From Styela clava (lineage: Eukaryota; Chordata; Ascidiacea; Stolidobranchia; Styelidae): a stretch of 64,000 nt of DNA. This document shows, in pieces, positions 3,258-64,000 of this stretch. Positions within the stretch are counted from its first letter, which is position 1. Every line of letters starts with the position of its first letter. The position numbers were made by a program, and so were the translations under genes. The notes under the pieces are model-generated. The model was given only the letters and a program-made list of their open reading frames with translations, was not told where the DNA came from and did not search any database. The stretch covers positions 15,810,001 to 15,874,000 of the forward strand of contig NC_135261.1 in NCBI RefSeq assembly GCF_964204865.1, in the 5' to 3' direction.

Positions 3258-6200
3258 CAGTGGCGGCGCGTGGTCATTTTGACAACCGGGGCAAGCTACT
3301 GCGGGACCAAGTCACCCCCATCCACGGGGACAGGATGAGCACTGTAAGTTCTCCCATCATTTTATGAGTATAAAAACCATTCCATCGGTAACAACCAATC
3401 GGCAAAAGCGACAATTTTTAACGATAAGAAAGTGTCTTTAAAACCGGTCCAAGTCAAGGGATTAATAAATATAGACATAGTTTATTTTGAAACCTCTTTC
3501 AAAAGAAAAGGCAATATTTACCCGAATAAATACAATGACATATTAACAGAAACTTCGGGAAAGCAGACAAAACCTAAAATAAGGTTTAAAACGTTACTAT
3601 GAAGAAAGGAAAGTTAATGCAAAGATAAGGACATGCGTCGCTCACTCATAGATATATATGCTGCTAGACTTCTACTGCTTGAACATATATGCAACACGCC
3701 GCGGTTCCTTGGAAGCAAATAAGCTTGGAAGCTCAATAACGCGCTGATTAAAGTCATGCATCCCAGAAATAACGTCTCTGTGAATAGATAAAACAGCCAA
3801 GGAATTTAATCTATCTTGCTTCATTGTGTTTCTGAGATACGTTTTAATACGCTTCAGCGTGCTGAATGTTCGCTCTGCGTCGGCGGAAGAAATAGGCGTC
3901 GTCAAAATGATGTCCAGAAATTGTGCAGACGCCGCAAAGGTAGTTACTACAGTGTTATCTATGAGGAACCCATAGAGCGCGCAAGTTGATGTGATGTTCA
4001 AAAAAGTTTGATTGGTGTATATACATCGCAATTCATTTTCCAATTTACCCACGTTTATCATGGGGTAAAATTTGGAGACAGTAGCCAACAAATGGATGGA
4101 AAATTGACGTGCAAATTTTGAAAAATTTATTTTTGGGGTTCATCAAAGAGAACGCGGCAAGGTGTTCAGTGCGCAGACGATCGCCTATTTGATTCACCAG
4201 AATGTCACAGCATTCCTTTGCAGACAAAATCAAACGCTGCGTTGTTTGCCAGCGGCGTAAAGAAGCACTCCATGTGTCGTCGTATTTTATTGTTTCCCGG
4301 ATAGGAGATACAGCATCGCAGAAGTCTGAAATACACGACTGCACAGACGCTCCATCCATTAGCCTTGACTGCAATGCGCCGTATAATACATCCCACGTGA
4401 TAGAATATTGTGGAGAAAAAAGCGAGAAAAAATGAAAACTCACCATCTTCTAGCAGACGCTTTAGACCTGCCGCCTCCCTCACAGAGCGTTCGTCCCAAA
4501 CCGGAGAGCTCTGAATGCCATTGAAACACTCAATGAGCTCAGACCTAATTTCGGACACGCCCTGCACCACGCGTGATTGGAAGTTCCAACGTGTTGGTGC
4601 ACAAGCTGGGAGACGGCGGCTACATATCTGGCGAAGGAGGTCAGAGCGCTTCGGCGAAACGGAAAAAAATGAAGAAAACCCCGAAATATTTGAAAAAAAT
4701 ATACGGACGAGAGGGGGATCAAGACACATATTTTTAATAACGAGGTTAAATTGGTGTGCATAACAATGTAAAAAATGCGCATGAGGAAAATCTTCTTTTA
4801 TATAAACTTGAACACCATGTTTCGACCCACTCATGACTGCCGCGCCGGCATAAGTTTGAGCTATCAATTTTAACTTCGCGTTGTAAGGCTGTAACACTTC
4901 TTTCAGTACAGCCGATATCCCGCAAGCCGTGCGATCAACGATTGATACAAAGCTGTGAAATCTCTCGGTAGGTTTACCATCTTTCACAAACCGAAAAATC
5001 ACAGCCAGTTGGGAAACGCACGTGATGTCAGTTGTCTCGTCAGACTGAATCGAAAGGAACTGGCAATTCTCAATTTCCAGAGCCAAATGTTGTAAATAAA
5101 TTTTATACATTGAGTCGAGCAAATCATTTTGGATATCCTTAGATGTCCCTTTCGAAACAGTTGCGGCATCAAGATGATCTCTCAATACTGTATCTAGGGA
5201 TGCGGTGTATTCCACCATATCCAAAATACCCCTTCTATTAGAAGAGCCAGCCCGTTCATCGTGCCCACGGAGGGACAGCTCGTGACAACCAATGAACTTC
5301 AAAACATCTATCAATCGACCGAGAACATGGCGGTTTTTCTCGACGTTTTGGTTGTGCCGACGAATAGAAACCGCGCGTCCTTCATCCAACTGTGCTGCAA
5401 TATTAACATTTCCGAATGTTCGGTATTTTACTGCATTGTCCAGATGCTCCATAGAAGATTGATGATCCCTGGCACGCTCGGAAAGATGTTTAAGATCTCT
5501 AAAACCAAATTTACACCAACGTGAGTCACGGGCGGTAGCAAAAAGTAGGCAATAAAAACAAAAAAGTGCATTTTTGTCCTCGCTGTAACACAACCATTCG
5601 TGTTTTTTATACAAAGTTTCTGCGCAGAATGTACGCCGACGCTTTCCTCCGTCATGGGATTGTTCAGGTGAACAATTTTTTGGTTGATAAGGCCCAAGAC
5701 GTTGTACCTCCAATTTTTGTTCCAGCGGCAGCTGCGAAAACGGAGTGCGAAGTAGTGCATCAACCTTATTCATTATGAGGTCTAAGGCTAAGAAATGCGA
5801 AGCCGGAAAGAAGTGAGGAGCTCAAAAGGAATGTGGAAAATCGAAAGCAAATGGACTAAAGGTCTCTAACTGATTCAAATAGCGAAACAAGCGATAAAAA
5901 CGAAGGCGAGGAAACTATCAACTCTTTAAGCAACCAACGAACGAGAAGGAATGCGTGAATATGTCAACACGTTGTTGTAAGAAACGTCGGCATTGTGTCG
6001 TCATAATTTCGGGGCTAGCCCCGATCGGCCCCGATGATTTAGTAAAAGAAACAGAAAACAAACGAGACAAACGCGGCGAGTGGAAGATAAAAGAGAGAAT
6101 ACGATATACAATGAGCAACCGGGGCAAAATCGGCGTCGCCCCGTCGACGTTCGGCGAAGGCTTTGCAAGCGAAAAATGAACCATGTCGGGAGATATGGCT

Positions 6201-19438: not shown

Positions 19439-22236
19439 ATGACTGACAGAGACGAACTCACAATAGTTGATTTTCAAAATTTTAATCCGGTGGAACATGA
19501 AGCTCCAAAACAAAGTATGAAAGCTGTTAGTGAAAAAATATACGAAGCGTTATCTACTAAAGGTTATGTTTGCATTCAAAACTGCGGAATTGGAAGGTAA
19601 TTTTTTTTTTATCTCTGACATGTCACATTTTATTCTAGAACTTGTTGCACTCAGAGACTTAACAAATAATCGAACCGACAATTCCTCGTTTTGTACTATA
19701 TATCATTTTATATTATTTCAGGTCAGAAATTGCAAATGTTTTTGAAAATGCAAGCGCATTTTTCCATCTGGATAACGATATAAAATTGAAGTATCGATTG
19801 GATCAGGATTTTGTTGGTTATGTACCGTTTGACGGCGACATGTAAGTTCAACGCAAAACATTTTTGTATATGTAAATTTGCGCTACTCTCATAGGCCATA
19901 ACTTAGTAGTCATAGAAGTGAAATATTATTCGAAATATCTCACATCGCCGACCACATTGTAACGATTTCCTATGTTTTTTGGAATTGGAATGATTTAAAT
20001 AGATTGATCGTACACAAACCCTAAAACTGATTTTTAATAAGAAAATGCACGTTTATGCACGTCAAGTCACACTAACTCGCCCAGTTTGGAATGAACGTAT
20101 AGCGCACGTTATTTTGTCTGGTAGATACACGGACAATAAACAGGTGAAAGTTTACAGTCAGTCCAGTTAAACGGCTGAAAACATTTTTCGGAAAGACAGG
20201 TTTCAAAAATTCGAAAAAACATATTCCATTGTAGTATCTGTAAAAGAGCACACAACATTCTGTCGATGGAAAAAGGGTTGTAGTTCAACAGGCAATCGTA
20301 TTGATATATATATATATATTTAATCGGTCTAGTGCAGTCAAAGCAACACAAGCTTGGATATGACAGCATTACATATACATGGACCGATGGACGTATCTTG
20401 TGGTTGAATTCAAAATTGTAAGAACGAAATCTATTTCGTCTCGAACTCTCTAACAAAATTCCCTCAATATGTATACGCTATAGTTGTCAGCTACGGTGCA
20501 CACAACTTACTAAGGTTAAGGTCATCTAATATCTAAAACAAACATCAAAAATCGCTGATATCACGACAATCCAAGAGCAGGTCCGCGCGAACCTCCTGAA
20601 AAAATCGAACATCAACTAACGGGTTTCGAGCCACTGAGGTTATATATTACTTCTAACTCAAAGCCCTATAGAGATGGTGAGACAAAACTTGTGGATGTTG
20701 TTCTAGTTGTTATTTATTTTCTATTGGAATTATGTTCTTACTTTTTTTGTATAAGGAAGTTTCGTCACGTTGTTCCAAAGGGGAAAGAGGCTTTATATCT
20801 TACTGGGACAGGATTCTCTTCGCCTAATATAAATTGGCCTTCCGACAAATATACCCCAGAGTTCTCCAAAAACATTAAACAACTCGGGGAAAAACTTCAC
20901 AAACTGGCAAACTTCATGATGGATATTCTTGCGCAAGAAATGAAATTGCAGGTGATTTTAAAAGTATATAGGATTAAAATAGAGAGCATAATAAATAGTT
21001 CATAAAAATATTAATAGAAAATATTCAAATAATAAAATTACACGTTTTTCACTCAATTTTTTTTTACCAGGATCAGCAATATTTTAGAAAGCTGACTAGT
21101 CGAATGAATCAATCAGGAAACTACACAATGATTCGAATAAATCATTATCCACCAGTTGATGATAATCAAGAACTACCACAGGGAAGTTGTAGACTTGTTG
21201 AACACACTGATCTCACTTTTGTTACATTTATATTTCAAAATACTGAAGGTGGATTACAGGTAATTGACAATTTTGATGTGCTCTTCCTATATACCCTTAT
21301 AGATTTACTGATACCAATTCAAAAATCGAACCAAAATGATGTTTTTTGAAAAATATTTTTAGTTTTATAGCGCTTTGTTTGATTATGGATTACGGTTTCA
21401 GATGCTCGACAGAAATGGTGAATACATAGATGTCCCGTTCGTTTCGAATAGTATGCTTCTGATCACTGGTGATGTAATACAGAAATGTACCGGAGGAAAG
21501 ATTCGGTCAATTGTAAGTAGTGCCTGCGACACTTAAATACTTGGTGGTAGTTGAGACTGAGAAAGGTATCAATAGTTTCATTTTCCGTTTTTTCAATATT
21601 TTACAAAAGTAATGTACTATTATGCTCCCATGTAACAAATCGCACCCCGTCACACACCAAATTTTATGAGGTTAAGGATTCAAAAAACGTTTGATATATT
21701 TTAGTTGTATGTTAAAGCACTCATTCTATCTGAAAACTTCGTAAAAGAATCTATAAATGTTGTTTAACTTCACCATACGCACTTGACGAAGTTTGTCTGG
21801 CTTCTATTTTATGTATTATTATATGATATACATATTTATCCCGATGAGAGGAAAACCGATAAGACGGATCAATCATATGGCGAACCACAACCTCTCGTCC
21901 AGTTACCAGTCTATATCGGATATGGGATTAGTTAGCGAGTTATTCGTTTCAGACGCACTAATTTGGACATGCACACTCACTAGGGCTAAAAGGGACAGTG
22001 CATATTTGAATTTCTAGAAACATCGAGTTGCCGTTTCGGACGACTCAGAAACGAGAAAAGACAGAATTTCGATAACCTACTCCGTACGCCCCGATAACGA
22101 GGTTCCCGTTGAAGGTATTGAAAACGGCTGGACCGATTTGGGATCGAGTAACTACCGCTGGACGGCGGGCGCAAAAACCATGGGAGAAATTATTTGGAAC
22201 GAAGCCAAATGGAGCTACGGAGTTAAGTCTACATAA
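19439..22236 (+). CDS. IPNS-like iron(II)/2-oxoglutarate-type oxygenase, 330 aa, six exons
   Basis: Exons: 19439-19596, 19722-19841, 20756-20951, 21071-21259, 21402-21512, 22018-22236; all junctions are GT/AG and keep one frame to TAA. The N-terminal part (about residues 8-110: LTIVDFQNF, KGYVCIQNCGIG) matches the non-heme dioxygenase N-terminal domain. The C-terminal jelly roll has NYTMIRINHYPP, then the iron ligands His203-x-Asp205 (VEHTDLTF) and His260 (KHRVAV), and the Arg274-x-Ser276 pair (RIS) that binds the 2-oxoglutarate carboxylate. Length fits the isopenicillin-N-synthase/flavonol-synthase group (about 300-350 aa). It has no signal peptide, so it is probably cytosolic. The substrate is unknown; the close plant and microbial relatives oxidise small molecules. 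Intron 5 carries a repeat just before the last exon. Confidence 0.9.
21831..21945. repeat. SINE-like interspersed repeat, copy 1
   Basis: Shares CATATTTATCCC, ATCATATGGCGAA, CCTCTCGTCC and ATGGGATT in the same order with 45319-45420. It lies in the last intron of the oxygenase gene, ending some 70 nt before the last exon. The class is not determined. Confidence 0.6.
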
Positions 22237-23672: not shown

Positions 23673-24140
23673 GCAGGGGTCGGCAACCTACGGCCCGCGG
23701 GCCGTTCCGGCACGCCGAGTAACATAATCCGGCCCGCGACGCTCCACTGAATTATAGTAACAAAACAACTGTTTTGACGATTATGTTTATTTACGTAACA
23801 TAATTTATTGTTAGACACGTGTAGACTAAATTATATTATATTCTATACAAGTATAAAATTCATAATTACTCGTTAATGAGGATTTAATTCAATCATAATT
23901 AGGCAAATGGCAACAAAACGTAGAAAAGTTGATGCTGAGTGCAAAGGGTTCAATGACGCCGAAAATATTCAAATGACAATTCTTGAGATGCAATGGATCC
24001 GTGAAATGAAAAGAGGGGGATCGTATCGAGATCATATCGGAATTGAGCTGAATACGCGAATTGTAGGTGTTAGTGGGCTGAGAAACGTTAGATGTCGACA
24101 AAAACATACCTATTCACTGAAATTAGATGAAAATATTTGA
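23673..24140 (+). mobile_element. remnant of a hAT transposon with a GTF2IRD2-like transposase start
   Basis: Begins with CAGGGGTCGGCAACCTACGG and GGCCCGCGGGCC, a typical hAT terminal sequence. A frame from 23907 starts MATKRRKVDAECKGFNDAE, which resembles the first residues of transposases related to GTF2IRD2/SPIN-type hAT proteins (KRRKVDAEC). The later QKHTYSLKL may be the end of the BED-type finger (KHxxxLKL). It stops at 24140; I do not find a right terminus or the catalytic core, so this is a truncated, inactive copy. Confidence 0.6.
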
Positions 24141-24679
24141 TAGAGCGGTAATGATGTTTGAGGAAAAAGTATCAGATTGTGGGAGATAAATACACATGTT
24201 TCTTTTCAGATGTGCAATCTAATTGCAAATTGTGTTGGGGCATAGATTGAGTCTTCTAACACGCTTCTAATACAGGAATCATCATTATTTGCTATTTGAT
24301 CAAAGAATATACGGTTCCTTGTTTAAAACTGCATATTCTAATTAAGACACGAAGTCAGATTTTGTAGTCAGGCTCAGATTCTTGACATTGAAAGCCGTAG
24401 ATCTCATGCGGTGTTATTTAAAATATATAATCACTATCGAAAGTATACTATCTTCACCGACTATCACATAAGCCTTGCCATCATTCAAAGATTTGTCCAG
24501 ATTTGCTATCACATATACACAATGTATGACATTTAATATTTTGTTTCAGAGAGGATTCGGTGCTAAGGTAAACATCTGCATCTCAGCTATATTTTTGAAA
24601 TACTGATCTGGACACCACTTGATATCCAACGATGTTATTCCATATACTCAAACAAACATTACGGAAAAACAATCACATT
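24141..24679. other. intergenic, no gene seen
   Basis: AT-rich. One 18-nt stretch at about 24551-24568 is flanked by AG and GTAAAC, but nothing supports it as an exon. Confidence 0.35.
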
Positions 24680-24685
24680 TTTATT
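24680..24685 (-). promoter_or_regulatory. polyadenylation signal (AATAAA on the minus strand)
   Basis: About 130 nt past the stop of cionin-like gene B, a normal distance for its 3' end. Confidence 0.5.
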
Positions 24686-24815
24686 CATGTATTGTAAGAG
24701 TTGACAAAAACACACTGAAAATAATAAGAAAATAATGCAGCTTTTGAAAAAATCATCCCAGTAATAAACTGTTTTCTTTTTAAGTCCGTATATTTCGCAT
24801 GGGATAATTCTACTT

Positions 24816-27800
24816 TTACTTTCCGTATGGGGTCCAACCGTAGTAGTTTCTGTCTTCTATCTTTATGTCTTTCTCATCTTTGTCACTGACGACGTCAGCA
24901 TACACTGTAATGCGAATTCATGAAATTACATTTGATTTTGACTGTAATTTATTTGTCACTTTTTTTCAATCATGTTACAGTATAAATGAGGCAGCCAAAT
25001 CGTCCAAAATTAGTGAAATATAATCCCTGTGAAAATATATAAATGGCAACCATGTTTCTCAACCCGCACTGTTCTGCACATGTTACCTTTGACCCTCAAT
25101 ATAAATAAATAAAACAATAAAAGATTGCCAAATGCAGTTCTGCCACACTTGTCATACCTGTCGCCATATTTGTCGTGAAAGACTGTAACTTTGCTTGCAG
25201 ACGTTTCATCTCCTGAATCATTTTGTCTATCTGAACTCCTCTTGCGTCATTGTTTTCTGAAATTAAAAATTTATCGTCGATTTATAAATCAGACCGTCAA
25301 TGAGCATCAGTGCTAAAATGTTCTTTAAAAGTAATCAGTATAATAGGTAATTATATTTCTACGTAAATATTTGTTTAAAAAGATTGATGATTTGGGGGAG
25401 AATGTACATTTCCGACAAACAAGGTGTGTGCATTTTTATGTTGGATTTGTCTTCCTTCACTGGTTGATGTGCGGTATGATGCAATACTACAGTGGTTCCC
25501 AAAGGTTTTTTCCTCAAGTCGCACTTTGAACATTCAAATAACATTTGAAAACATTTTGAACTCAAATGTTTATAAATTACTACTCTGCATAAAATTCTCT
25601 ATTCAAACATTTGAACTTAAAAAATGGTAAATCACGCCACGGCTGTTTACCAGACTTATATTAAAAAATTCTTATTCACGCATAAATGAAAATCATTGGA
25701 GTGGAATAAAGTAACCAATCAGAATAATTTGCGCTAAGAATCAGATTAATAGTTGAAAAAGAAGTTTTGCTATGAGTAAAGGGGTCTAAACTGCAAAAAT
25801 TACAAGAAAAATCTTGTAAGATAACACATTTGGATACCAGGATACCTCTCTCACATGCAAATTAAATGGGTACTATGCGCAGAACAAATTTCAACATTTT
25901 TTTATCGTCGTCTTTGACGAAATTCAAAAAATTGGATTGGTTTTAATGAAAAATAATGTTTATTTCGCAATAAAATTTTTCGTTTACGAGCAGAGATACG
26001 TCGTTATATTGACACAAAATATACCCAAAGTGCCAAATTGACGAGTTAAAAACATCGCTTTTCAGTTTTAGTATTCCTGCATTGTCATGCAGTCGAAAAT
26101 CTGAGTTGCAGATCCACTACTTCAACGTCTGGTCACTGATGCTCGCGTAATAAGGGATATTTCTCACCGGGTGCACGATTCCAGATTCCGGCGAACAAAC
26201 TAATTATATTCTGATATTGAGCTTAGTAATTCTTGTTGAAGTAAACAATCATCGAAAATATCAAAATTATCTATATTTAAAAGTCACACGAGTTCTTATC
26301 GACTTTCTCGGTTTTTCAAAAATTTAAAAGACTGACGTAGCCAGTGGTGCAGTACGAAGTCGCTTATGAGTCGTATTGCCAACAGAGGAATGCTAAAAAA
26401 CGGTGTTATAAAAAATACCAAGAAACGAAAAAACAAGGAATTTTATTATAGATTTACTTAGATTTTATCGCAGATCTTGGGATTTTTCCCAGGGCGATAT
26501 TTTTAAAATAAAAATGGAGAAATCGCCGTAACTGTTTCAGAAGCTGTTGCATGTCGATTTAAGGCTCTGAATGTGTTATCATGATCATTTACAACAGATA
26601 AAAAAAACTCACTCAAACACACACTTCGGGTTAAATGTTTTTTTTTCGAGTCAAAAAAGAAATTCCCATTTTTATGGCCTTTTTCATGTTACCGTTGCAT
26701 TGTTTTACCAATTATGTCAAATTTCTATAATTTTAACACTATTACACACAATAGGAAAACATTTTATGAAAAGTCGTTTAGAGATTGATGAACAAAAAAG
26801 TATTTCATATTATATTTACTGATTCTGAAAACAGAAAGATGTACATTATGGTCTTTTCACTGACGACCGGTTAGATTAGATTAGATCAGTGTTTCCCAAC
26901 CCGAGTCCGCGGTCTCAAATGAGTCCGCGGAACTTAACTATCAGACAAATTACGATTTTATGTTAGGATTTACATAACACATAAAATTTATTCGAATAAC
27001 ATTAATCGAGTCAATAATTACTGGATACTGAGTAGAGCTGGGCATATATTCAACTATTAGAATAGCAATTTACTATTTAAAAATTTGGTAACGGGTGACG
27101 CGACAGGTCACTTGCGCGTCGCTTAATCAGACTTGCGGATTTCCGACGAAAACACGAGTCTGCACACGCTTTGATAAATACCCAAAGTGGTGTTTCTTAC
27201 GAGTTCGAACAACGAGAAATAATTTTTTTTTGTGGTGGATGTCAATGGTAGAAATCCAAATTTTCTAAATTGAAAAGCGGCAATACTAAAAATAAAACGG
27301 AGAACGCTATCAGTTTTGTTTTATGATGGTCCGCGACCGATTAATAACGTTTTTTTAGACATTGCAAAAGACAAAATTTCAAGTGCTACTGTAGTATACG
27401 TACCAGGGCATTTTTCCTTAGAATTTTTTGCTTTACTGCCTCTACATTGGTACGTACAGTACTGGAGCGCCGTAAGTGTTGTACCAACAGCTCAGATTTA
27501 TCGAATTCACAAAAATACGAATGAATTAAAACAAAATATAATCGGGCCACGCATTTTTGTGTCCACAGATTGTCATGATATTTTCTGAGCAGCATTGCTT
27601 TCATTTTGTCAACAGAACCGCAGATTAAAATGATTTTTGATTTACTAATGATTTTTGATTTACTAATATACTTTAAATATATTTTTAATAAGTACTAAAT
27701 CAAGTTGTACTTTCTGGAAATTTATAGCAGATAGTAGGATTTTTCTAACGACGATTACAAGTTCGCAAGATCGCAAAAAATATGTATTATAACTAAATAT

Positions 27801-28648
27801 ATATAATGGGGCAATATATTTTCACATTATTATGTTCACAGATTGCCGTGGCATTTTGAAGAAGTAATGCTTTCATCTTGTTGTAAGTCAACGCAACCGC
27901 GAGTTACCATGAACACAATTAAATTAAAATAGAAAGACATTTAAATTGTCGTCGTTGTCATGGATTGAATATTGTGCGACAGAAAAAGCCATTATACACA
28001 AAAAGTTGGCTTTTCTAACGAACGCGTAATTGCGGCGAATTTCCAATTTTGAAATTTGTTAAATTCTGTTGTGTTTGGTTTTATCGCTTCTTCACACAAA
28101 GTGCGGTTGCAATAGACGCACCTTGAGTCCGCAAAGGTTTTTGCTGATAAGAAAATAGTCCGCGGACAAAAAAGGTTAGGAAACGCTGGATTAGATAATC
28201 AGAAACCACTTACATGTATGTATGACATATTAGACTTGAAGTGTATAAAATGGTTTATTATGGAAATCCGACCGAAATATTTGGTTTGTTACTTCATTAG
28301 ATTCCTCGTTTTGTTATGAGATTTTCAAGCAACAACGTGTGCATTCAATACATATCATTTATACATATATACCGTATGTATTTCAACCTTCAAAACAAGT
28401 TCATTCTGATGACAGTCTGAATAGTACAGTGAGGTTAAGTTTAGTGATAACATTCTCATGCACAATTTTGTGTTACTAGCTTCACCTCGCATTTTGAGTC
28501 TTGCGTAATAGCTATTGTCCTCTATTTCCTTTGAAGGATCGCTGCGGGGTGTTCGAGTTTCTCCAAGAGCCACAGTCGAAAAGAAAACGAGAAAAATCAG
28601 AGTGCGGATAGTTGACACAAAGTTAACATCGTTCCTCTTTGAACACAT
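24816..28648 (-). CDS. cionin/CCK-like prohormone B, 116 aa, ending NYYGWTPY-Gly-Lys
   Basis: Exons on the minus strand: 28648-28486, 25256-25158, 24904-24816; both introns are phase 1 with GT/AG sites. Exon 1 gives a signal peptide (TLIFLVFFSTVALG) and an SDPSKEIEDN stretch. Exon 2 is a short amphipathic helix (IDKMIQEMKRLQAKLQSF). Exon 3 is acidic (DVVSDKDEKDIKIED), then Arg, then NYYGWTPYGK and TAA. Cleavage after the single Arg, Lys removal and Gly-dependent amidation would give NYYGWTPY-amide. NYYGW is the start of ascidian cionin (NYYGWMDF-amide). Met, Asp and Phe of the receptor-binding end are all changed here, so this copy may have a different receptor or be relaxing. Intron 1 (3.2 kb) holds a hAT-type element. 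Exon lengths and phases match gene A. Confidence 0.85.
26887..28188. mobile_element. hAT-type element, 1302 bp, perfect 8-bp target duplication
   Basis: The ends are CAGTGTTTCCCAACC and the complement of GGTTAGGAAACGCTG. GATTAGAT is duplicated exactly at 26879-26886 and 28189-28196. Subterminal GTCCGCGG words occur at both ends. A 90-codon frame at 27316-27588 has no transposase motif, so the copy looks non-autonomous. It sits in intron 1 of cionin-like gene B. Confidence 0.88.
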
Positions 28649-28779
28649 GGTGTTTAATCAATTATCATTTATCTTAGGTTAATGAACTTGATATAATAAA
28701 AAGGATAGGTTAGCATTCAAACTGTAAAAAGTAAGACTAAATCGAAATTATGTTTACTTTGCTACTCAAAGAAAAAATT

Positions 28780-29513
28780 CTAAGGGCCTTCCCAATCGTA
28801 GTTTTCAAACTGATGTATAGCAAATACAGTTTTATTGTCTCGTAGATTTCTAATCTTATCGCCGCACAATCATTTCACTCGATTGACAACAACATAAAAC
28901 GCCAAATCTAATTCAGAAAGGCTATTTATACTGAAATTTCAAATTTATTTTTTCGATTTTCTGGCATCTATGATGACATCCGTCTTTTTCAATTTTTCTT
29001 GTGCAAAATCGACACTTTTTATACACATTTCTGACTATTTTATGTCGTTCATGTAATTGCATACTTGTAATGATACTATGGAAAGTATACATATATCTGA
29101 TATTCTTATCAGATGAACCTGAAATTGCAGAAACTTTCATGAATATTTATAATTTTAAACCATAGCAAGACAAGTTCATGTAGTCTCTTGTGTGGTAATT
29201 TATACTGTTGGTTGTTTCTCTGAATCAACGAGTCAATTCTGACACCCAGAGATACAAACATGGAATTCAATCAAATTTTGAGAAGCATGTACCCAATCAT
29301 CTGCTTCAAAACACTCTTCACTTGCCACACAACCCCATTTATCAATCCGTGCAAATATGTTATTTCACATCTTGCAAGCGTGAAAAGGGTTTATAAGTGA
29401 TTAAAATACACTACAGAAGAACTTACATCGTTCTTCCCGAAACTATAGCGCTCTGTCTCGCGAAATGTTTCTTCAAATCGTATTGCTTTTTTAGGTCTAA
29501 ACCACGAGTAATT
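28780..29513 (-). CDS. possible third small peptide gene, last two exons only
   Basis: Minus-strand candidate exons are 29513-29427 (29 codons: NYSWFRPKKAIRFEETF, then RETERYSFGKND) and 28809-28780 (FENYDWEGP, then TAG). The first ends in a perfect GTAAGT donor. The second follows a TATACATCAG acceptor, and the frame joins at phase 0. The product would be charged and short, with Pro-Lys-Lys and Phe-Gly-Lys motifs like peptide-hormone processing sites. I found no first exon or signal peptide between this and gene A (which ends at 31392). It is not clearly homologous to genes A and B; the resemblance of NYSWFRP and NYDW to NYYGW could be chance. Confidence 0.3.
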
Positions 29514-31391
29514 CTGCTGGCGCGTAATAATACATCATCGCATATTAGCTTCAGGAATTCTTGACTCTTGAATTTGCTAAGAGATCAGTCTCCATTACGT
29601 CTAAGTTAATGCACGTGACCTTGCTTTGAGGAAATTGTAAAAAAAACTATGTCTTCTCTTGTATGATTCGAGTTTGGTCGCATTAAGTCTCAAATTATTG
29701 GTCTCAATACAGAAGTAAGATGGGAAATTCAAGCACAAATATAAGACAAGATTGAGGAGCCAATTTGACCAAGTCATGATGATTTAAATTAAATGAAAAA
29801 AGCTCAAAGCGCTAAACCAATATCTATAAATGCGTGGAATAGATTTTAAATAACATTTACTTGTATTCCATGGCATAGACTTTATAACAGAGTTTCCGAA
29901 ACTTTTTGTTTCTCAGCAACCCTTGGGCAATTGGGCAATTTATATTCTTTCGTGCACCTCATAAATAGTCTATTATTTTTGGCTACTTAAGTTGCTCTGA
30001 TGCACAACATATATCCTATAGCAAGGCAACCCGTTACATGCCATATAAACTGATAAAAACTTTAGATTTATTACTAATTAAAGCACACGAAATTATTAAA
30101 TAACAATGTAATATAAGCTTGAACAAACACACTACAATCAAACGAACAATACATCGGCTGAAGGTGTTTTGAGCTGTGATCTGTGATTCCAAGCAGTACT
30201 GAAAATCTCGACTCTTTTTATACGAATCGCACACCGTGGACCAAGAACCACTTTAATTTCTCTGCGGTGTCTGAGCCTTCACGATGAAAGGATTCCTAAG
30301 ATATGCAATTTCGACTTCACCAAGATTTTCATTCAATTTCATTTTCCGACTTCATAAGATATTTAGTGACCAACTCTTTGATCTCAGATTTAGGATTTTT
30401 TAAACCGAAATTCTGATACAGTATTAGACCATGATTGATTGTCAAGATAAGATTGGTGCTATGTAAATTTTATTTTCGATAAAAGGAGACGACTCTATTG
30501 GTTTTTCAGCTTTCTTAACTACTTTCTCGTAGAAATTAGATGCGAACGTAATTTCTGTAGTTGCAGTTAAAGTTTCTACTGGGGAGAGAATGTGACTTAC
30601 TAATGGGGGTTCCTAATTCAGGTCTTCAAGTTATTAACATCAGGCGATAAAAATATTCTAAGGCGGATTTAGAGTTACGGAAAGAATAGACTTATACTAT
30701 ACTTGATCTAATGTACCCCTTGTGAAGTCGAAATTAACTTATGGGGATACATGTACCCCAGTTTGGAAACCCCTGCTTTATCAGAACAAACTTCCGAAAG
30801 CGACGTTTTCTTGCTTCCGAAGCCGTGACAGAAACGATTACATATTTTAACGTTTACGGCAATAAACATCGACATGACTGAAACGAGTTATATTCGATCT
30901 TGTTTCTCAGAATCGCATCAGGCGCAAGATTTTATTACATGGTTCGAGTCCGGCTTACGAAAATATCTAAGAGTCGCCTAAGCGCTGATTTAACATGGCC
31001 GTACCCGCCTTCGTAAGATTTACCAACCCTACGTATTAGAGAGATTGGTTGATGACTATTGTTCGTATAAGTTAGCATACTGAAACAACCCAATGCCTGT
31101 TTATACAATATCGATATATTGGAAGAAAAATGTATTTGAAAAAAAAAACGATAAATAATATGCAATTACAATTGTTTTATGCTATTACAATACCAATTGA
31201 TAGTACTTCAAATCGCACGTCGCATTGCCATTTTGTCAGATATTATTATCTGATCTTGTGCACCTACGAAATTGCCAATTAAAACAACACAAATACAGAG
31301 TAATAAATAACATTTGACTGGAACTCGTTGATTCTCATTTGAATGTCCGAAGTAAAATCGAATAAGAATGTTTCACTGTTTGGGCGAACTA

Positions 31392-33053
31392 TCATTTTCC
31401 AAAAGGCATCCAACCGTAGTAATTTCTCTCTCCTATGTCAATATCTCTCTCGTCTTGGTCACTGACTACGTCATCGTACGAATGTGGACGTTGGCGAGAT
31501 GAGTCTTAAAACAAAACGCCGAGAGAAAATATGGTTTAATTGAAGTTATGGGTGATACAGTCTGTGGACCAAAATGTCGATATTGACGCACAAATATCAG
31601 GCTAATTCAATTTTGACGACTTAAGTGTTGCAAAATTTGAGGCCATTTCTTAAATTAGGCATAATTTGACACGACATTATTGAAATACAGTAACTTTATG
31701 TAGTTTTAAATTTATTGTGAAAAATATATTATTGAAGTGAATGATTGTACAGTATGTGGTATTCCATATACTTCAGTTCAAAATCATTAAGTAGAGACAT
31801 TTATTGATGGATTTAATAATTTTTCAATAAATAAAAGCATGGTATTTTGTATCGTTACTGAAAACAATTTAGTTTTTACCTGTTGTCGTTCCTCCAGTTG
31901 ACATAGTCGACTTACAATACTCTAATTCATGTTGTAGTTGTTTATATTCCTCAATCATTTTCTTGAGTGCAATTTGAAATTCGACAAGTCCGCTGACATC
32001 TGAAAAAAAGGGATGTATTGATAATGCAATAGTTTCATTTTATATTTTTACGTTGAAAGCTAAACCATCACAAAAATGTCATTTATTTTTCAGCTTTCAG
32101 GTTTTTCGTTGACGCAACGAATAGTGATTAATTTTTTATATGAATTATCTATTTTTAAGCAGAACCACTGAACCAATGAATATGCAGTGTCTCTTTTCAG
32201 TGATCAAATTTTATCAACCTCAGGATCAAAATTGTCGTTTTGTAAATCCACTTAATACAATGACGACCATGACATTTTGAAGATTAACATTCATATTTAA
32301 TGTAACAAAGCTAACATCATTCACCACAGCGGTGTGCATGAATGACAACAAAATTTCTGGAAATTTTTTTAAAATTACTGCAACAGGATTAATAGCGCAA
32401 ATATCGAAAATATAGATTCAGCATGGCACACCAACTGGGGTCTTCACTTTAGAGTGGCACATTCTAATAAGTTCACATAAAATTTACAAATGACACATAG
32501 CATAGTAAAGATGTGAAGACGTGGTTATTGGTGCATTTATTGTGTCAAAGTTTGATGTGATATGGCGAATGTCCTTTTCTGTTACATAACATGTGCGGTG
32601 ATTTAGTCTGTTCTAATTGTTTTACAGCTTTGCAGATTATTTATGTAATTTGAAGAACATGAATGATAAACTGCGGATTCAGATTCTAAATACACCAGAC
32701 AATTTTAGAGTAGCCATAAAAATTATCAATCTTCCATTGTACTATGCACTAGTGATTGAAAAAGTTGTTGCATATGCGTTAATAAGTTTTACTGGCAATG
32801 GAACATAAGGGCAACCAATAATTGACTCAGCCAAAATTCAGTGGCCAATCAACATACCGTGAAGCTTACGTCCACCGCGTAGACTGGTGTCATCAATTTT
32901 CAGTTTTCCTTCTTCCCTGGCGTCACTGGTCTGGTGTATACGAGATCCAGCAGATAGAGGAATTGCCAAGAGGCAAAGAGAGGCAACAAACGCCCAAGTT
33001 CGTTTTGCTAACTTTGTCCAACTTTTATTACGTTGTTGTAACTTGCTCTTCAT
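31392..33053 (-). CDS. cionin/CCK-like prohormone A, 138 aa, ending NYYGWMPF-Gly-Lys
   Basis: Exons on the minus strand: 33053-32870, 31999-31880, 31504-31392; both introns are phase 1 and GT/AG, and the frame is continuous to TGA. Exon 1 has a basic N-terminus and signal peptide core (WAFVASLCLLAIPLSAG). Exon 2 is helical (LKKMIEEYKQLQHELEYC). Exon 3 reads YDDVVSDQDERDIDIGER, then NYYGWMPFGK and stop. Processing at the single Arg before Asn, plus Gly amidation after Lys removal, would give NYYGWMPF-amide, seven of eight residues identical to cionin (NYYGWMDF-amide). The tyrosines follow acidic residues, the context used for sulfation. The only change, Asp to Pro, is at a position constant in CCK, gastrin and cionin. 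Secreted; the receptor would be CCK-receptor-like by analogy. Confidence 0.9.
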
Positions 33054-33116
33054 TTTGATATTTTGAATAAAGAAATTGTTCTGCTGAAATCAGACAAAAA
33101 AGCATTATTTGACGAC

Positions 33117-33467
33117 TAGGGCTGAGAATTTGCGAATACCTTATGATTTCCGAATCGAATCTCGAATACTTGGAAGATACGTATTGTATCTGACTTTTTA
33201 TTGTAATAGATCTTGCAGACATATAAATTACTGAAAACATAGTTGGCTGAGTCGTCGCACACTATAATAAACATGTTTCATTAAAAAATGGCATAAGACA
33301 GAATTGCATTTTAATAATATGGCTGCCATAAATAAAATTGAAGTATTTATCATCATATTCGGTGGACGAAAAAAAAACAAGATGGGGGCGATTCGAAATT
33401 TTTATCTGAACCAATCCGAATAAATTACTCTTCGATTCGAATATTAGATTCGAAATAATCATCCCTA
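33117..33467. mobile_element. GATTCGAA-type inverted-repeat element, short relative
   Basis: Ends are TAGGGCTGAGAATTTGCGAA and the complement of TTCGAAATAATCATCCCTA, with TTCGAATC words near both ends. It is related to 17238-18647 by its ends and lies only 64 nt upstream of the start codon of cionin-like gene A, so it may have displaced that promoter. Confidence 0.6.
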
Positions 33468-33983
33468 ATAACGAATTGAATAAGCAGACATAAAGTATGA
33501 GAATCTCACAGTAACAAATGCTTCCTAGTACAATAATGCGAAGTGCGTTATACAAACTTCCAATTGTATAAAACGTAAATATTTGATTGAAATTGTGCCA
33601 ATGCCCCGTAGTAGCTGATCGATACCTGTGTGGATCGTCTTTCAAATTATCCAACGTTGTCCGTCCTACAAATCTCTTTGTAACAGTACTGACTTCATTT
33701 CATATGCACCGCTTACTTATAGATAGTATCGCACTTTTTCTTTCTGTGTCAGTAACAAGCTTTTCTTTTGTCATTTTAACATGGGAATAAAGTAATTACA
33801 TTAAAAGAAAAAAAGAAATCTTTGCTATATGAACGCAATTGACACTTGTAGAAACAAATGCGAATTTAATATCCCTACGCCTTTTTCTTGTTAAAATAAT
33901 GAGCGAATGTATTTGCGCTGATGAAAAAAGGAAATATATTAGTACCTAATTTTAAATTTCATAACCTCTGTGACAGAATTTTG

Positions 33984-34093
33984 GGTACTCCTGAATTAGG
34001 CGCATCAAGATGTCGCACAACCTGAACCCTAACCTGGTACACAACCTGAGTTCAGGTTGTGCGCCATCTTGGTGCGCATACTTCAGGAGGTCC
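33984..34093. mobile_element. short inverted-repeat MITE, family member 2
   Basis: Arms GGTACTCCTGAA and GGACCTCCTGAAGTATGCGC (right end, other strand) both lead to CAAGATG. The core AACCCTAACCTGGTACA is shared with the copy at 16563-16745. Confidence 0.75.
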
Positions 34094-52100: not shown

Positions 52101-55100
52101 AGCACTTAGTCATTATCAAAGAATGATCTCTGTTTTAGAACCAGTACTCCCAGATCCTTGCGGTCGCTATTATTGTGGAAGAGGTCGATGTACTTCAATT
52201 CCAACTGTTCATTGCGAGTGCGATCAAGGTTTTACTGGAGAAAGATGCGACATTGGTATGATAATTCAAACTAAACTCAAGAACAAAGTTTTTTTATTGT
52301 GATATTTGCAATGGGCACTTTTCGACAGCGCTTGTTTCATTGTGACAAGGCTTGGAAAATTTTATCTGGTATTTTGTAGGGGCGATGACATAGTTGGACT
52401 AAACTTTACTGACCCTAACCTGAAGTTTTGTCCATAAATAAGAATACCCGAAATTAACCAAATACTTTTATTTAAGGTTTTTGAAAAGCATATTTTCCAA
52501 TAGTATCAATTGAGTTTTAGTGATGCAGTGGGTTGCCCCGAGTGGAATACGCAAAAAAGTGTGATGCAGACAAATAAATTCCGGATTTGCACCTTTGAAA
52601 CCAGGGGATATTATGTGCAATGCTCTTAAATATAGCTAGTTACTTTGTATGTTTCATAATGTTGATGCCGATGCAATAAATTACTATTTACATCTAAAAT
52701 TGTTTCAGCGATTAATCTGTGTGATTCTGATCCATGTCAAAATGGCGGAACCTGCCATTCTCAGTTTGATCGGTATCTCTGTCAATGCAGAAGGGGATTT
52801 TCTGGAGATAACTGTGAACGAGGTTGAGTAGTGTATACTTTCATTAAAATTAAAATTTTTGTAGGAAACGATTATTTCGCAAGTAAAGTAAAGTTCTGTA
52901 TAAAGCCATAGAGCAGAAAAAGTGTTTGTTTTTAGTTGTTTGTTTTAATCCAATATATAAATAATATGATATTATAATATAATAAGTTCAGATAAAGCTA
53001 GAATTCAATATTTCAATCTACGTTTGGCCCTATGCGCTCGATGTTTGTTTGGACGTAGCCCAAGTGAATAGCTGTTGATTTACGTTTCGGGCTTGGCCTG
53101 CCAAGAAGCCATCGAGTTTACAAAAATGAGTTTGCCATGAGGAACCAAATACTTTCCAATTTCTCCTGACTTTCCAAATGTATTCAATCTCTTGCTCCGA
53201 GTCTTGGTTGAGACAATAATGATATGGGACACTCTCTAAATCTAGGACTCATATATTCTTTAGAACGAACTCTTTGTAATCCAAATCCATGCCAGCATAA
53301 TGGTGTTTGCATTAGCTCAAGAACCGGCTATAACTGCAGATGTAAACAAGGATACGGAGGTTCCAGATGCCAAACTTGTACGTTGTTTTGGTTTTAAATT
53401 TTTGGTTTATATGTTACATCGTAGAGTAACGTTATTGGCAATGTATGCTTCATTATTTGTATCTTTCTCTAGTGGACACTCGCAGCCCATGTGATACCAC
53501 CCCTTGCTTGCATGGTAAATGTACAGTTCTCGGAAGAAATTATCATTGCGAATGCAACCGTGGTTACGAAGGCAGAAATTGTGACCAAATTGACAACGGT
53601 AAGTTATCATTCCTTTTGTACATCGAGACTATGGAACTCTCTTACCTTGTCATGCGAGACGCCATTTGTAACTTTTGTAGAGCCATCAATACTTCTCCGT
53701 TGCGGAATCCAGGAAGAAACGTACGGAAGAGCTGACATGATTCAATGGGTCGCTGTACAAGATAGTGGTCGAAGACAAGAAATCTATACTTATGATGTTG
53801 CGAATAATCGAAAAACTGAGGTAAAGAAGATGATCATAAAACAAAATCAGATGATGTTTACCATAATTATTCATTTTTTCGTGCATTCTTCTTTTCCAGA
53901 GAAATGTTGCCCAGTTCAGAGATAGATTGTGGAGTCCAACCCCAGATAGTCTTCTCATCAGAGATGCAACATTATCTGATGTAGGCACATACGAGTGCAT
54001 TGTATCCTATACTGACATCAGGATCACTCCATCACCAATGGTATGTGTAATGCTAGTTATACCGTAAATATTGTTAAGATTCCGTCAAGTGTGTTGCTTA
54101 TTTTTACTATATTTGAATATACGGTATATATATTTAATGTAACATTTTTCAGAGACTAATTCAAGTTCCTTATGACGACACAAGAGTAACAGTGCGTTGG
54201 AGGCCAAATCGAATGTTTATCGACCATTACAATGCTAAATATAGGTAATTATTTCTCAACACTTTTCACTTTCAGTTAATGTGAAATAATAATATGCAGT
54301 TGCTTAGGACAGTAAAGTAGCTCATAATATCCGATCTTGAAGTTATTATCTCCTTTGGTGTAAAAGGTAATACAGCAAGCTTCTTCACATCCAATGACCT
54401 TTCTGGGCGTTTGTCCGCGAAATACTTATTTCTACAGCTCGGAAACTTTTCAGGTTTGATTGCCGCCGCATTGATTCAAATTTAGTTATTTGAATTCATT
54501 TTTACAGATATTATTGCCATATAATATTTCTACAAACCCATGGTATATCGTGAATATACATATCAGTAACACTGGACTAGAATTTGCAGGTTTATCAGTC
54601 CGCCATTAATAAATCAAGGAGATGGCAGTATGTGAATTCATACACAAATATACATATATCCCTGTGAAAATTGAAATTTATTCAAATGAAATACTGAGTC
54701 CAATACACATTATTTCAATGTATTTGCCTGCTTTGTTTGTAGGGACGTATACAATGAAGATGATTTCGTGACAGTTGAAATTCCGCGTGGATCTAGTCAA
54801 CATACATTCAATGATCTCGAGCCTGGTAGCGTTTATGAAATAGCAATCACTCCTTACACTCGGTAAGCATAGAAGTACAACGTCTGTATAATTCGCGTTT
54901 GTCTTAGAAATTTAAACATTTCATTGTGTCATGAGACATTTGAAGTATTTCATACAAAATTGTGTTTGTTTGATATTATCCTACTTCGGCCAGGCGACAC
55001 GTTACAGAAATATATGTATGTTGGTGTGTAAATATAGGCGTGTTGTTGTGCAGCAAGACTCTGGAATCCCTTAGCACCACAGTTGAGTTCCAATTTTCTC

Positions 55101-61100: not shown

Positions 61101-64000
61101 ATTGGGAAATTTCCTATACAAAATAAATGTGATTCTTTTGTACAGTTAACGGAGAATAATTTATCTTATTCAGACAACTCCAAATCCTAGCAATCTACAG
61201 TTCAGAGGCCGACTCAGTAGTCCATCCATCACTGAACTGACAATTCAAAACATACAATATCCAGAAGACTTCGGAAGGTATAAGTGCGCCGTAACAGCCC
61301 CAAGCGGCACCGGATCAGACTTGATGGAAATCGTGAGTACATAATAACCATGACCGTTTTTTATGATCTGTTATTGATGTTAAACTTGATTTTTACAAAT
61401 ATGTATACAGGTTGCAAAATATCCCGACAGCATTGCACCTCCTTATAAATTTGCGTTTCGGTTTGTAAATGAGAGAGACGTGGTTGTAACGTGGCAGCAT
61501 CCATATCCCGAAGACATCACCGGATATGCCGTTCGTTACTGGCCAACATCTCGTAGATATGGACCTGAAAAGGTGAGACGATTTTTATTTTTATTCAGAC
61601 ATGTCTGGATTTTGGAAATTTAAGGCCCGTGTAGTATTCATCTTATCACTTGACTACCGTGCTCCAGCAATACCATCCATAAGGTCACTAGTGTATTTTC
61701 TTCCCATTAGGTTAAATATAAAAGATGTGGAACGTACTTTAATAGCGTCTGGTCTGTTGACAGAATACTTGATTGCACTGGGATTTTTAGAATTTGATGT
61801 TAATAGGAATACCCACACACCAGTTACTAAGCACTGTGAAATTAATAAGATTTAATAATAAACCGAATCAGATATTGATAATTAATCGCGGATCAATATT
61901 TCGTTTTGTTCAGGAATTAGAAACATCTACTACGGAAGCAACTTTGACCGGTCTTGTGAAAGGAACAGAATATCAGGTTGAAATCAAATCGAAAATTAAC
62001 GATAGAGTTTCAGATGATTCTTTAGTTGGTGCCTTCATACGTTTTGTAAGTATTACATTTATATGAGAATATATTCAATATATATAACTGATTGAATGAC
62101 CGATTAGCTAGTTTTTGTTAACCTGTTTACCCAAGCATTAAAAGATATAATTTCTTGTATCTTTTTCACTAAATCCACAACGCTATATGTTTTGTCCATG
62201 TAGTTTACGAATTCAACTAATTTATTATATAATTGTTCTTTTTTTTACAGGCAGACAAAGTTAGTGATGTTAGAGTCCACCGATTACCTGATGGTCAAGA
62301 GTTGATCATAAGTTGGCAAAATCCAGAAGATATTGACGGAATATTGTTTTCTATAAGAAACCCTGTAAGTATATTTTATTCTAAATTCACTTTTCGTTGG
62401 CCCGCGGGCCAATTACGGCCCGCATAACGATTTAATATTGCCCGCCGAACTTGGGTGAAATAGTTTACCACTTGATGTTTTATTTCTTGACGTTCTGAAT
62501 GCCGCAATTGTTACGTCATTATCACAGTTCAAGCATGTGTATATTTGTAACAATTCAATTACACCGGCATCTTAATTATACGTACCTGTATAAGGGGTAC
62601 ATATGGGTCGCGTCAGTGTATGCGCTCCCCTCTACCGGCCCGCGAATATCCTTCTGATTCTAAATTGACTCCCGGTCAATCAACTTTGGGAACCACTGTT
62701 ATATATTAAAAAAATAATTTATTTTCATGAACTACACTGTAAATGTTTGCCACAACCTTCTGCCCTTTTCCCTCCGCCCACTCTTATTTAATCAGAAGCA
62801 TGTCTTGACTATTAATGAATATTAACGTATTGTAGAACACACATACATGGAACGATCAACCGCCAATGTCACCTGACACAACTTCAAGAAGGATTCGTTT
62901 ACCGATGGCCCCGGGAGAAACTGCCTCATTCAAGATTAGCACATTGAAAAATAACATTCCTACCCCGGTGGTGTTTAACTACACAGAAATCGGTAAGTAT
63001 GTTGTTATGAGGCGAATGGTTATCTGAACATTGCAAGAGTTGAATTGACTCTTTCATTTATAACCTGGTGTCTTTGGTTAAGGCTGATGTGACTGCCTAG
63101 CAAGGCCAATTGAGTAGCGTCACTATTTGAAGCTTTTAGAATTGCATACAACCTAACCCAGGCTATTTATAATTTAAGAAGGTTATGTTGAAGTGATAAG
63201 ATTCTGTTTTTCAAGACGTACTCAATTTGTATGTATATTTGCTTTCTGGAAGTGAGTGAAACATCATAATAAAATTAGTTTGTAAGCAAGCAAGCATAAG
63301 TTCAATCTCAGCAACGGTAAAAGTTTGCAAGTCACTTAAGAATATTTGCCACCTGTGCTCTAATCATATTTGAAAAAAAAAATTTCACGAATGATAATTG
63401 AGAGCTTCTTTTAAAAATCTCAAGCCGTTTTTATTATTGTTCTGTTTTTTTCCTTCCATTTTTACATTATAATGTGGGATTGAATAATATTGGTTAAATA
63501 AACAGAGGTCGAGGTATAGAACAAAGTAAACAGAAAATAGTATGACAAGTCTACCCATGCTAAACTTTTCAACAGATGTCATCGAAATTGAAGATACTGG
63601 GACAAACCCACCGATCGCGACACCGACAAACAAACCCGGAGATGACAGGTAATAAAGTTTGTATTGTGATTTGATTAGTGGTTGCATGACATTATATTAT
63701 TTCCTTTATACATATCGGTATGCACTGAAGAAAACAAACCAATTTTGAGGAATTTCACATAAACTGAATAAGAAACCACCTGTAATTGATGAATTGCTAT
63801 TATCTGATTGTTCCTTGCAACAAGCTAGTTCTATCGTCTGATACACTAATCCAATTTTTTTTATTTTTAGATCTCCTTTGCCTTATCCATCACCGGTATC
63901 AAACTTGCAAGCCGAGGCACTTAGTCCTACATCACTGAGAGCTAGATGGGAACCCACACCCGATGTTTACTTTGACAACTACAAGTATAATTTGAATGAC
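45639..64000 (+). CDS. large secreted or membrane protein with Ig, EGF and FN3 domains, 5' 36 exons (partial)
   Basis: 36 consecutive exons join in one frame with GT/AG introns and give 1598 codons; the gene runs past the window end. The ATG at 45639 is followed by a signal-peptide-like stretch ([15 protein letters not shown]). Order: unrecognised domain (about 30-200), FN3-like (about 205-278), Ig1, FN3, four EGF (485-641), Ig2, FN3, Thr/Pro linker, Ig3, three FN3, Ig4, two FN3-like, linker, start of a further FN3. No transmembrane segment or kinase appears before the end. Ig plus EGF plus FN3 recalls Tie receptors, but the count and order differ (Tie has EGFs after two Ig domains and three FN3). 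The role is probably cell adhesion or reception. Exon blocks are described in the next entries. Confidence 0.9.
49667..51388 (+). other. Ig1 and FN3 block of the Ig/EGF/FN3 gene
   Basis: Exons 49667-49857, 49929-50045, 50470-50576, 50998-51117, 51306-51388 (residues 278-484). Ig1 has [13 protein letters not shown] and YAGHYKCRF, the Cys-Trp-Tyr-x-Cys signature, split by a phase-0 intron. The FN3 has [12 protein letters not shown] and [18 protein letters not shown]. The last exon is an acidic linker ([17 protein letters not shown]). If its donor is not used, the frame ends at TGA 51400-51402. Confidence 0.85.
51433..51650 (+). promoter_or_regulatory. two intronic AATAAA signals behind an in-frame stop
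   Basis: AATAAA at 51433-51438 and 51645-51650 lie inside intron 11, right after an in-frame TGA (51400-51402) reached by reading through the exon 11 donor. They could support premature polyadenylation; in AT-rich DNA they could also be chance. Confidence 0.35.
52139..53598 (+). other. four EGF domains, one per exon
   Basis: Exons 52139-52255, 52709-52822, 53264-53377, 53473-53598 (residues 485-641). All are bounded by phase-1 introns, the usual shuffling unit. Each has six Cys in EGF spacing, for example CQNGGTC with [12 protein letters not shown], and CQHNGVC with [12 protein letters not shown]. None has the D-x-D/N start of the calcium-binding type. Confidence 0.93.
53681..55336 (+). other. 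Ig2, FN3 and Thr/Pro linker block
   Basis: Exons 53681-53820, 53900-54040, 54153-54244, 54743-54862, 55221-55336 (residues 642-844). Ig2 has LLRCGI, IQWVAV and DVGTYECIV. The FN3 has VTVRWRPN and [17 protein letters not shown]. The last exon encodes a Thr/Pro-rich linker ([18 protein letters not shown]) likely to carry O-glycans. Confidence 0.9.
55732..59992 (+). other. Ig3 and three FN3 domains block
   Basis: Exons 55732-55886, 56128-56298, 57306-57455, 57814-57942, 58432-58584, 59049-59177, 59334-59446, 59820-59992 (residues 844-1235). Ig3 has YIHCVY, IAWKKV and DAGIYECTV. Each FN3 takes two exons: [16 protein letters not shown] with [32 protein letters not shown] with [27 protein letters not shown] with [14 protein letters not shown]. 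The first two are close to each other, suggesting a recent module duplication. Confidence 0.92.
59493..59760. mobile_element. hAT-type MITE, 268 bp, perfect 8-bp target duplication
   Basis: Ends CAGGCATACCCAACT and the complement of AGTTGAGAAGCCCTG; TCCCAGAA is duplicated exactly at 59485-59492 and 59761-59768. It lies inside an intron of the Ig/EGF/FN3 gene, with no coding content. Confidence 0.88.
60532..64000 (+). other. Ig4 and C-terminal FN3 block, continuing past the window
   Basis: Exons 60532-60692, 61174-61332, 61411-61572, 61914-62045, 62251-62364, 62836-62992, 63576-63648, 63871-64000 and beyond (residues 1236-1598). Ig4 has VTLECKA, VRWYKV and DFGRYKCAV. Next is an FN3 ([16 protein letters not shown] with [16 protein letters not shown]), an FN3-like pair with [14 protein letters not shown], a TPTNKPGDD linker, and the start of another FN3 ([17 protein letters not shown]). 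The frame is open at base 64000. Confidence 0.9.
62395..62702. mobile_element. probable hAT-type MITE with degraded ends
   Basis: It starts near GGCCCGCGGGCC and GGCCCGC (62400-62424) and ends CTTTGGGAACCACTG (about 62684-62698), a hAT-like terminus read from the other strand as CAGTGGTTCCCAAAG. A similar single end occurs at about 25491. No clear target duplication was found. Confidence 0.45.

Follow-up and report, generated by a model that had tools for sequence, protein, structure and literature searches.

A tandem pair of cionin-type genes with proline in place of the penultimate aspartate, alongside a canonical cionin gene and two cholecystokinin-type receptor genes, in the ascidian Styela clava

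The stretch of DNA analysed here (the window) comprises 64 kb of the Styela clava genome (C16:15810001-15874000; 34.4% GC; the genome has 376.6 Mb in 379 contigs) and carries two neighbouring genes, which we call A and B, for precursors related to cionin, a peptide of the cholecystokinin (CCK)/gastrin type. A six-frame search of the window found the tetrapeptide YYGW twice, both times on the minus strand, in the endings NYYGWMPFGK-stop and NYYGWTPYGK-stop, and broader motif patterns added two further matches, both unrelated. In the spliced models each of the two genes has three exons, and all four introns are of the GT-AG type and in phase 1. Gene B encodes 142 amino acids and its precursor ends in GER-NYYGWMPFGK-stop, while gene A encodes 116 amino acids and ends in EDR-NYYGWTPYGK-stop; the N-terminal part of both models contains a hydrophobic stretch, as judged by eye. 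The original prediction had placed a tandem pair of cionin/CCK-like prohormone genes at 24816..33053, and the models bear it out on the minus strand. The span proved exact: it opens with the final base of the stop codon in gene A and closes with the initial base of the ATG in gene B. Two predicted Styela clava proteins found in the databases agree with the models, namely P0001 (LOC120330149) with B (99% over the whole length, same length, one of 142 residues different) and P0002 (LOC120329205) with A (97% over the whole length, same length, two of 116 residues different). The exons, in window positions, are as follows.

32858..33053, minus strand: gene B exon 1, with the ATG, a signal-peptide-like stretch and the start of the propeptide (spliced model; donor GTATGT; P0001 differs only at S37A)
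31880..31999, minus strand: gene B exon 2, an amphipathic propeptide segment (spliced model; homologous exon in gene C, described below)
31392..31504, minus strand: gene B exon 3, with an acidic linker, a single Arg, NYYGWMPF, the amidation Gly, Lys and stop (motif search, spliced model, genome search)
28486..28648, minus strand: gene A exon 1, with the ATG, a signal-peptide-like stretch and the start of the propeptide (spliced model; P0002 differs only at F22L and Y47F)
25158..25256, minus strand: gene A exon 2, an amphipathic propeptide segment (spliced model and genome search)
24816..24904, minus strand: gene A exon 3, with an acidic linker, a single Arg, NYYGWTPY, the amidation Gly, Lys and stop (motif search, spliced model, genome search)

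Both tails have Pro where Asp would be expected in the Trp-Met-Asp-Phe-amide ending, and they keep the double Tyr, the Gly-Trp and the amidation Gly; this part of the original prediction holds in the window sequence as well as in the database proteins, P0001 and P0002 carrying the same Pro. The Pro codons of the two genes are different (CCA and CCT), and the step from GAT to either of them takes two base changes. That the Pro codons might be a product of sequencing or assembly error can hardly be credited. We found no support for such an error, which would have had to alter two bases in the codon of each gene, giving CCA in one and CCT in the other, and also to produce the same Pro in database proteins whose differences from our models all fall outside the peptide.

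A search of the whole genome, on both strands, with the pattern YYGWxx[FY]G gave four matches against two for the reversed control; these were A, B, a third gene (gene C) and one site with an in-frame stop. On this comparison with the control, chance occurrence of the motif was considered and rejected. At C16:17643039, on the plus strand, gene C reads YYGWMDFG, and the stricter pattern GWMDFG[K/R] has its single genome match in this gene (none in the reversed control). This genome-wide GWMDFG[K/R] search, with gene C as its sole match, gave no canonical alternative terminal exon belonging to A or B. The gene lies on the same contig as A and B, 1.8 Mb away, and encodes 172 amino acids in three exons with GT-AG introns in phase 1, as in A and B. 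Its C-terminus is AERNYYGWMDFGK-stop, i.e. R-NYYGWMDF-GK-stop.

C16:17639094-17639316, 17641300-17641446 and 17642920-17643068, plus strand: gene C exons (assembled spliced model)

The canonical cionin gene C is new and was absent from the original prediction, which had, however, proposed a genome search for an NYYGWMDF copy. Since gene C is present, cionin has not been replaced in Styela clava, and the two Pro genes are paralogues additional to it. Genome searches with the complete precursors gave seven matches for B, six for C and five for A, all of them exons of A, B or C. Precursor B recovered gene C exon 2 (E 1.3e-6 genome-wide; 3.4e-11 when only a 9.1-kb stretch was searched) and exon 3 (E 2.6e-4), and precursor A recovered gene C exon 3 (E 0.0013). 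Such searches may miss strongly diverged copies, as queries B and C missed exons 1 and 2 of gene A, which were recovered by query A. Protein database searches, the last of which took candidates of up to about 157 amino acids and thus had gene C outside its range, returned solely the two Styela clava proteins, Ciona cionin (P0004) and two metagenome proteins of unknown species (P0003 and P0005). The last three were matched at weak E-values (2.0 for P0004, 0.71 for P0003 and 2.5 for P0005), and all three carry a precomputed PF00918 assignment, have the Asp and continue past GKR.

A pyrimidine tract followed by AG was noticed by eye shortly before the ATG of genes A, B and C (at about 33084 in B; weakest in A). 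It could be the end of an intron in the 5' untranslated region or a spliced-leader acceptor.

The position of A and B in the family was assessed as follows. In the Pfam family PF00918 (curated cut-off 22.2 bits, which is a threshold for detection), gene C scores 27.1 and thus lies above the cut-off, while B (21.1) and A (17.6) lie below it; the Ciona protein scores 105.3. Descent from a cionin gene is indicated for A and B by precursor homology to gene C and by the common intron phases. The Trp-Met-Asp-Phe-amide ending is found in gene C and is missing from B (WMPF) and A (WTPY). By homology, A and B are therefore cionin paralogues by descent, but not WMDF-type peptides. Gene C resembles them in its three exons, intron phases and acidic linker, and has NYYGWM in common with B; it differs in having Asp for Pro, a linker longer by one residue, and exons longer than those of B (223, 147 and 149 nucleotides versus 196, 120 and 113). 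Ciona cionin (CION_CIOIN) is alike in its NYYGW core, the single Arg before Asn, the amidation Gly followed by Lys and a similar precursor size (128 amino acids). On the other hand, Ciona has Asp where A and B have Pro, gene A differs additionally by Thr and Tyr, and the Ciona precursor runs on after GKR, whereas A, B and C end directly after Gly-Lys. Most simply, A, B and C may be read as descendants of a single gene in which the C-terminal extension was already lost.

Vertebrate CCK and gastrin are similar to A and B in having a Tyr near the C terminus, Gly-Trp and a C-terminal amide, and dissimilar in their common GWMDF-amide tail (PMC8921109, PMC10942981). WMDF-amide is common to CCK, gastrin and cionin, and has been called essential for receptor activation (PMC8149874). 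Proline thus stands in A and B where the chordate relatives compared (gene C, Ciona, CCK and gastrin) have aspartate. To call this Asp invariant, as the original prediction did, is nevertheless an overstatement for the wider family, as insect sulfakinin ends in HMRF-amide and nematode NLP-12 in PLQF-amide (PMC10942981). These two share with A and B a penultimate residue other than Asp, but they have no Trp-x-Pro tail and are described as protostome-type members. Among the papers listed from the open-licence literature searched, which leaves out most subscription journals and all preprints, we noticed no description of Styela cionin genes or of the A/B pair.

The order of events can be approached from the end of the coding sequence. 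Over its last 90 nucleotides A and B are identical at 68 positions, A and C at 56 at most, and B and C at 58 at most (one codon of C being removed). The same residue is present in A, B and C in 15 columns of the tail, and 12 of these vary synonymously; eight of the 12 codons group A with B, three group A with C and one groups B with C. Moreover, A and B lack the same single residue of the acidic linker, which is present in C and, by MAFFT alignment, in Ciona and P0005. Because most of the synonymously varying codons place A with B and apart from C, the change from Asp to Pro most likely preceded the tandem duplication, which is the first of the two possibilities offered by the original prediction (the other being that Pro was fixed twice).

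The tail also appears to be constrained. Between A and B the nonsynonymous divergence (dN) is 0.157 and the synonymous divergence (dS) 1.24 over 27 codons, i.e. dN/dS is about 0.13, and the ending R-NYYGW-x-x-[FY]-GK-stop is kept in A, B and C. Comparison of the DNA of the three loci found a match between A and B only at exon 3 (92 nucleotides, 77% identity). Wide divergence outside this exon, with 39 of 107 aligned residues identical over the whole precursors, might suggest that A and B are functionless, decaying duplicates in which Pro arose by drift. We consider this very unlikely, as both genes keep their reading frame, splice sites and processing sites, the dN/dS of the tail is low, and the database proteins P0001 and P0002 are intact too.

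The original prediction had also proposed a genome search for CCK-type receptors, and this search was successful. With human CCK1R as query, 24 matches were obtained, seven of which form two loci, R1 on contig C3 (four matches, at 53, 58, 58 and 39%) and R2 on contig C18 (three, at 49, 53 and 50%). When compared with PDB chains, the translated pieces of R1 and R2 match human CCK1R and CCK2R best; pieces scoring 205.2, 159.6, 116.2 and 103.5 bits with CCK1R reached 92.2, 97.2, 61.0 and 58.1 bits with the best non-CCK chain. On these matches, the genome carries two CCK-type receptor genes, R1 and R2. Two cionin receptors are known in Ciona as well, reportedly having arisen within its own lineage (PMC8149874).

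The remaining 17 of the 24 matches lie outside both CCK-type loci, at 19-39% identity, and represent further class A receptor-like exons. They are among the observations which would suit another explanation, namely that the Pro peptides no longer belong to the CCK system and have another class A receptor as their target, the cionin precursor being a mere delivery frame; gene A, whose tail departs from that of canonical cionin at three residues (Thr, Pro and Tyr), would suit it too. However, A and B have both kept the double Tyr together with the Gly, the Trp and the context for amidation, and we regard this explanation as unlikely.

The two receptors were then compared at the CCK-8 contact positions of human CCK1R. 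The numbering is that of human CCK1R, checked against the human sequence; the comparison covers the parts of the receptors other than the N termini and third intracellular loops, and the splice donor of R2 after the exon with the Arg of the second extracellular loop is uncertain.

Human R197 (sulphotyrosine contact): Arg in R1, Arg in R2
Human N333 (6.55): Asn in R1, Asn in R2
Human R336 (6.58): Lys in R1, Lys in R2
Human Y360 (7.43, amide contact): Tyr in R1, Tyr in R2
Human H210: Tyr in R1, Tyr in R2
Human Y176 (4.60): Tyr in R1, Phe in R2
Human I329: Leu in R1, Thr in R2
Human N98: Ser in R1, Thr in R2

In human CCK1R, the reported contacts of Asp7 of CCK-8 are H210, N333, R336 and Y176, the last of which forms a hydrogen bond with this Asp (PMC8604728, PMC8208569). 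With Lys at 6.58, one of the main positions in contact with the Asp, both Styela receptors still have a basic residue to offer to a ligand whose penultimate residue is acidic, which the presence of gene C would lead one to expect. Receptor R2, which is devoid of the Tyr 4.60 contact, may be hypothesized to be the better candidate receptor for the Pro peptides.

Taken together, A and B are probably intact, diverged cionin (CCK/gastrin-type) paralogues that act on CCK-type receptors. This interpretation builds on what was observed in the genome: the structures of the genes with their sequences, a third copy that is canonical, an exon 3 in which A groups with B, and the presence of two CCK-type receptor genes. 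In this scenario, an ancestral cionin gene would have been duplicated, with the canonical form persisting as gene C. One of the copies would have exchanged the penultimate Asp of its Trp-Met-Asp-Phe-amide tail for Pro, that copy would then have been duplicated in tandem, and gene A would later have changed Met to Thr and Phe to Tyr. The precursors would enter the secretory pathway and be cut after the single Arg before Asn; by analogy with known cionin, the C-terminal Lys would be removed, Gly converted to the amide, and one or both Tyr residues sulphated. The resulting NYYGWMPF-amide and NYYGWTPY-amide may use the double Tyr, the Trp and the C-terminal amide to act on CCK-type receptors, and they would do so in the absence of the Asp side-chain contacts to the 6.58 residue and its neighbours. 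Altered potency, efficacy or receptor preference relative to canonical cionin would be expected from the loss of these contacts, and R2, with its Phe at 4.60, would most plausibly be the receptor favoured.

Several observations weigh against this interpretation or parts of it. Expression, processing and altered receptor recognition of A and B are what we infer from the sequence. The PF00918 scores of both precursors stay below the cut-off. As regards the order of events, four of the 12 informative codons group otherwise than A with B, dS from A and B to gene C is saturated, and gene conversion between the two genes could have produced what looks like a Pro inherited from their common ancestor. 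On the receptor side, the basic residue kept at 6.58 in both R1 and R2 is in keeping with the canonical ligand and is no positive evidence for the Pro ligands; the position of H210 is Tyr in both and makes no distinction between them; the Phe that R2 has at 4.60 may be an old feature; and a further structural study describes no contact at all with the fifth transmembrane helix (PMC9174195).

The same receptor residues may also be read in a different way. As both R1 and R2 keep the sulphotyrosine Arg, the Asn at 6.55 and the amide-contact Tyr 7.43, binding of the Pro peptides through sulphotyrosine, Trp and the amide is plausible. On the other hand, Pro cannot make the reported side-chain contacts of Asp, and WMDF-amide is the ending called essential for activation (PMC8149874). 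The peptides might thus bind CCK-type receptors and activate them poorly, being endogenous antagonists or partial agonists that tune the action of canonical cionin from gene C, although we consider this explanation doubtful. Returning to A and B as paralogues that act on CCK-type receptors, a more specific version of it may be proposed tentatively, with rather low confidence: the Pro-cionins may constitute a new chordate CCK branch that evolved in the Styela lineage together with R2 (on C18), which would have lost the Tyr 4.60 contact and would prefer Pro ligands, while gene C and R1 would keep the ancestral pairing.

The system turns out to be richer than the original prediction had it, as the genome of this one ascidian holds a canonical cionin gene, two Pro-type paralogues in tandem and two CCK-type receptor genes. 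Three CCK/gastrin-type genes were found in Styela clava, as opposed to the one gene that a review gives as typical of invertebrates, Ciona included (PMC8921109). In human CCK1 receptor structures the Asp is an anchor, and yet two paralogues with constrained tails lack it beside a canonical copy and two receptors in the same animal, which offers a natural test of joint peptide-receptor change after duplication. If R2 indeed prefers Pro ligands, a ligand-receptor split would be seen beside its ancestor in a single genome. CCK-type peptides have been reported to stimulate gastric enzyme secretion in Styela clava (PMC8428848), and therefore a physiological assay exists.

As for the rest of the window, scans with Rfam (at gathering scores) and for tRNAs gave no match in it. 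The tandem-repeat scan of positions 24000-34000 found one short array, located in intron 1 of gene A, and the predicted RNA fold of gene A exon 3 is unremarkable (z -0.98). Ten chosen open reading frames of the window were scanned against Pfam, and five had matches, all to known families. These and one repeat are given below.

3672-5821, minus strand: overlapping open reading frames with DUF4371 and a hAT dimerisation domain, a relative of hAT-type DNA transposons
20999-21349, plus strand: exon-like open reading frame with a 2OG-Fe(II) oxygenase domain (E 1.2e-6)
53430-53735 and 61791-62066, plus strand: an EGF-like open reading frame (E 7.2e-5) and a weak, sub-cut-off fibronectin type III match
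33985-34089: a repeat, parts of which match two sites upstream of gene C (87 and 82%) in opposite orientations

The EGF-like and fibronectin type III reading frames are possibly parts of one extracellular-matrix gene. Besides exons, the comparison of the three loci found 61 bp in intron 2 of gene A that match the region of gene C, as well as matches of repeats next to gene B; the repeat at 33985-34089 looks like a short dispersed element.

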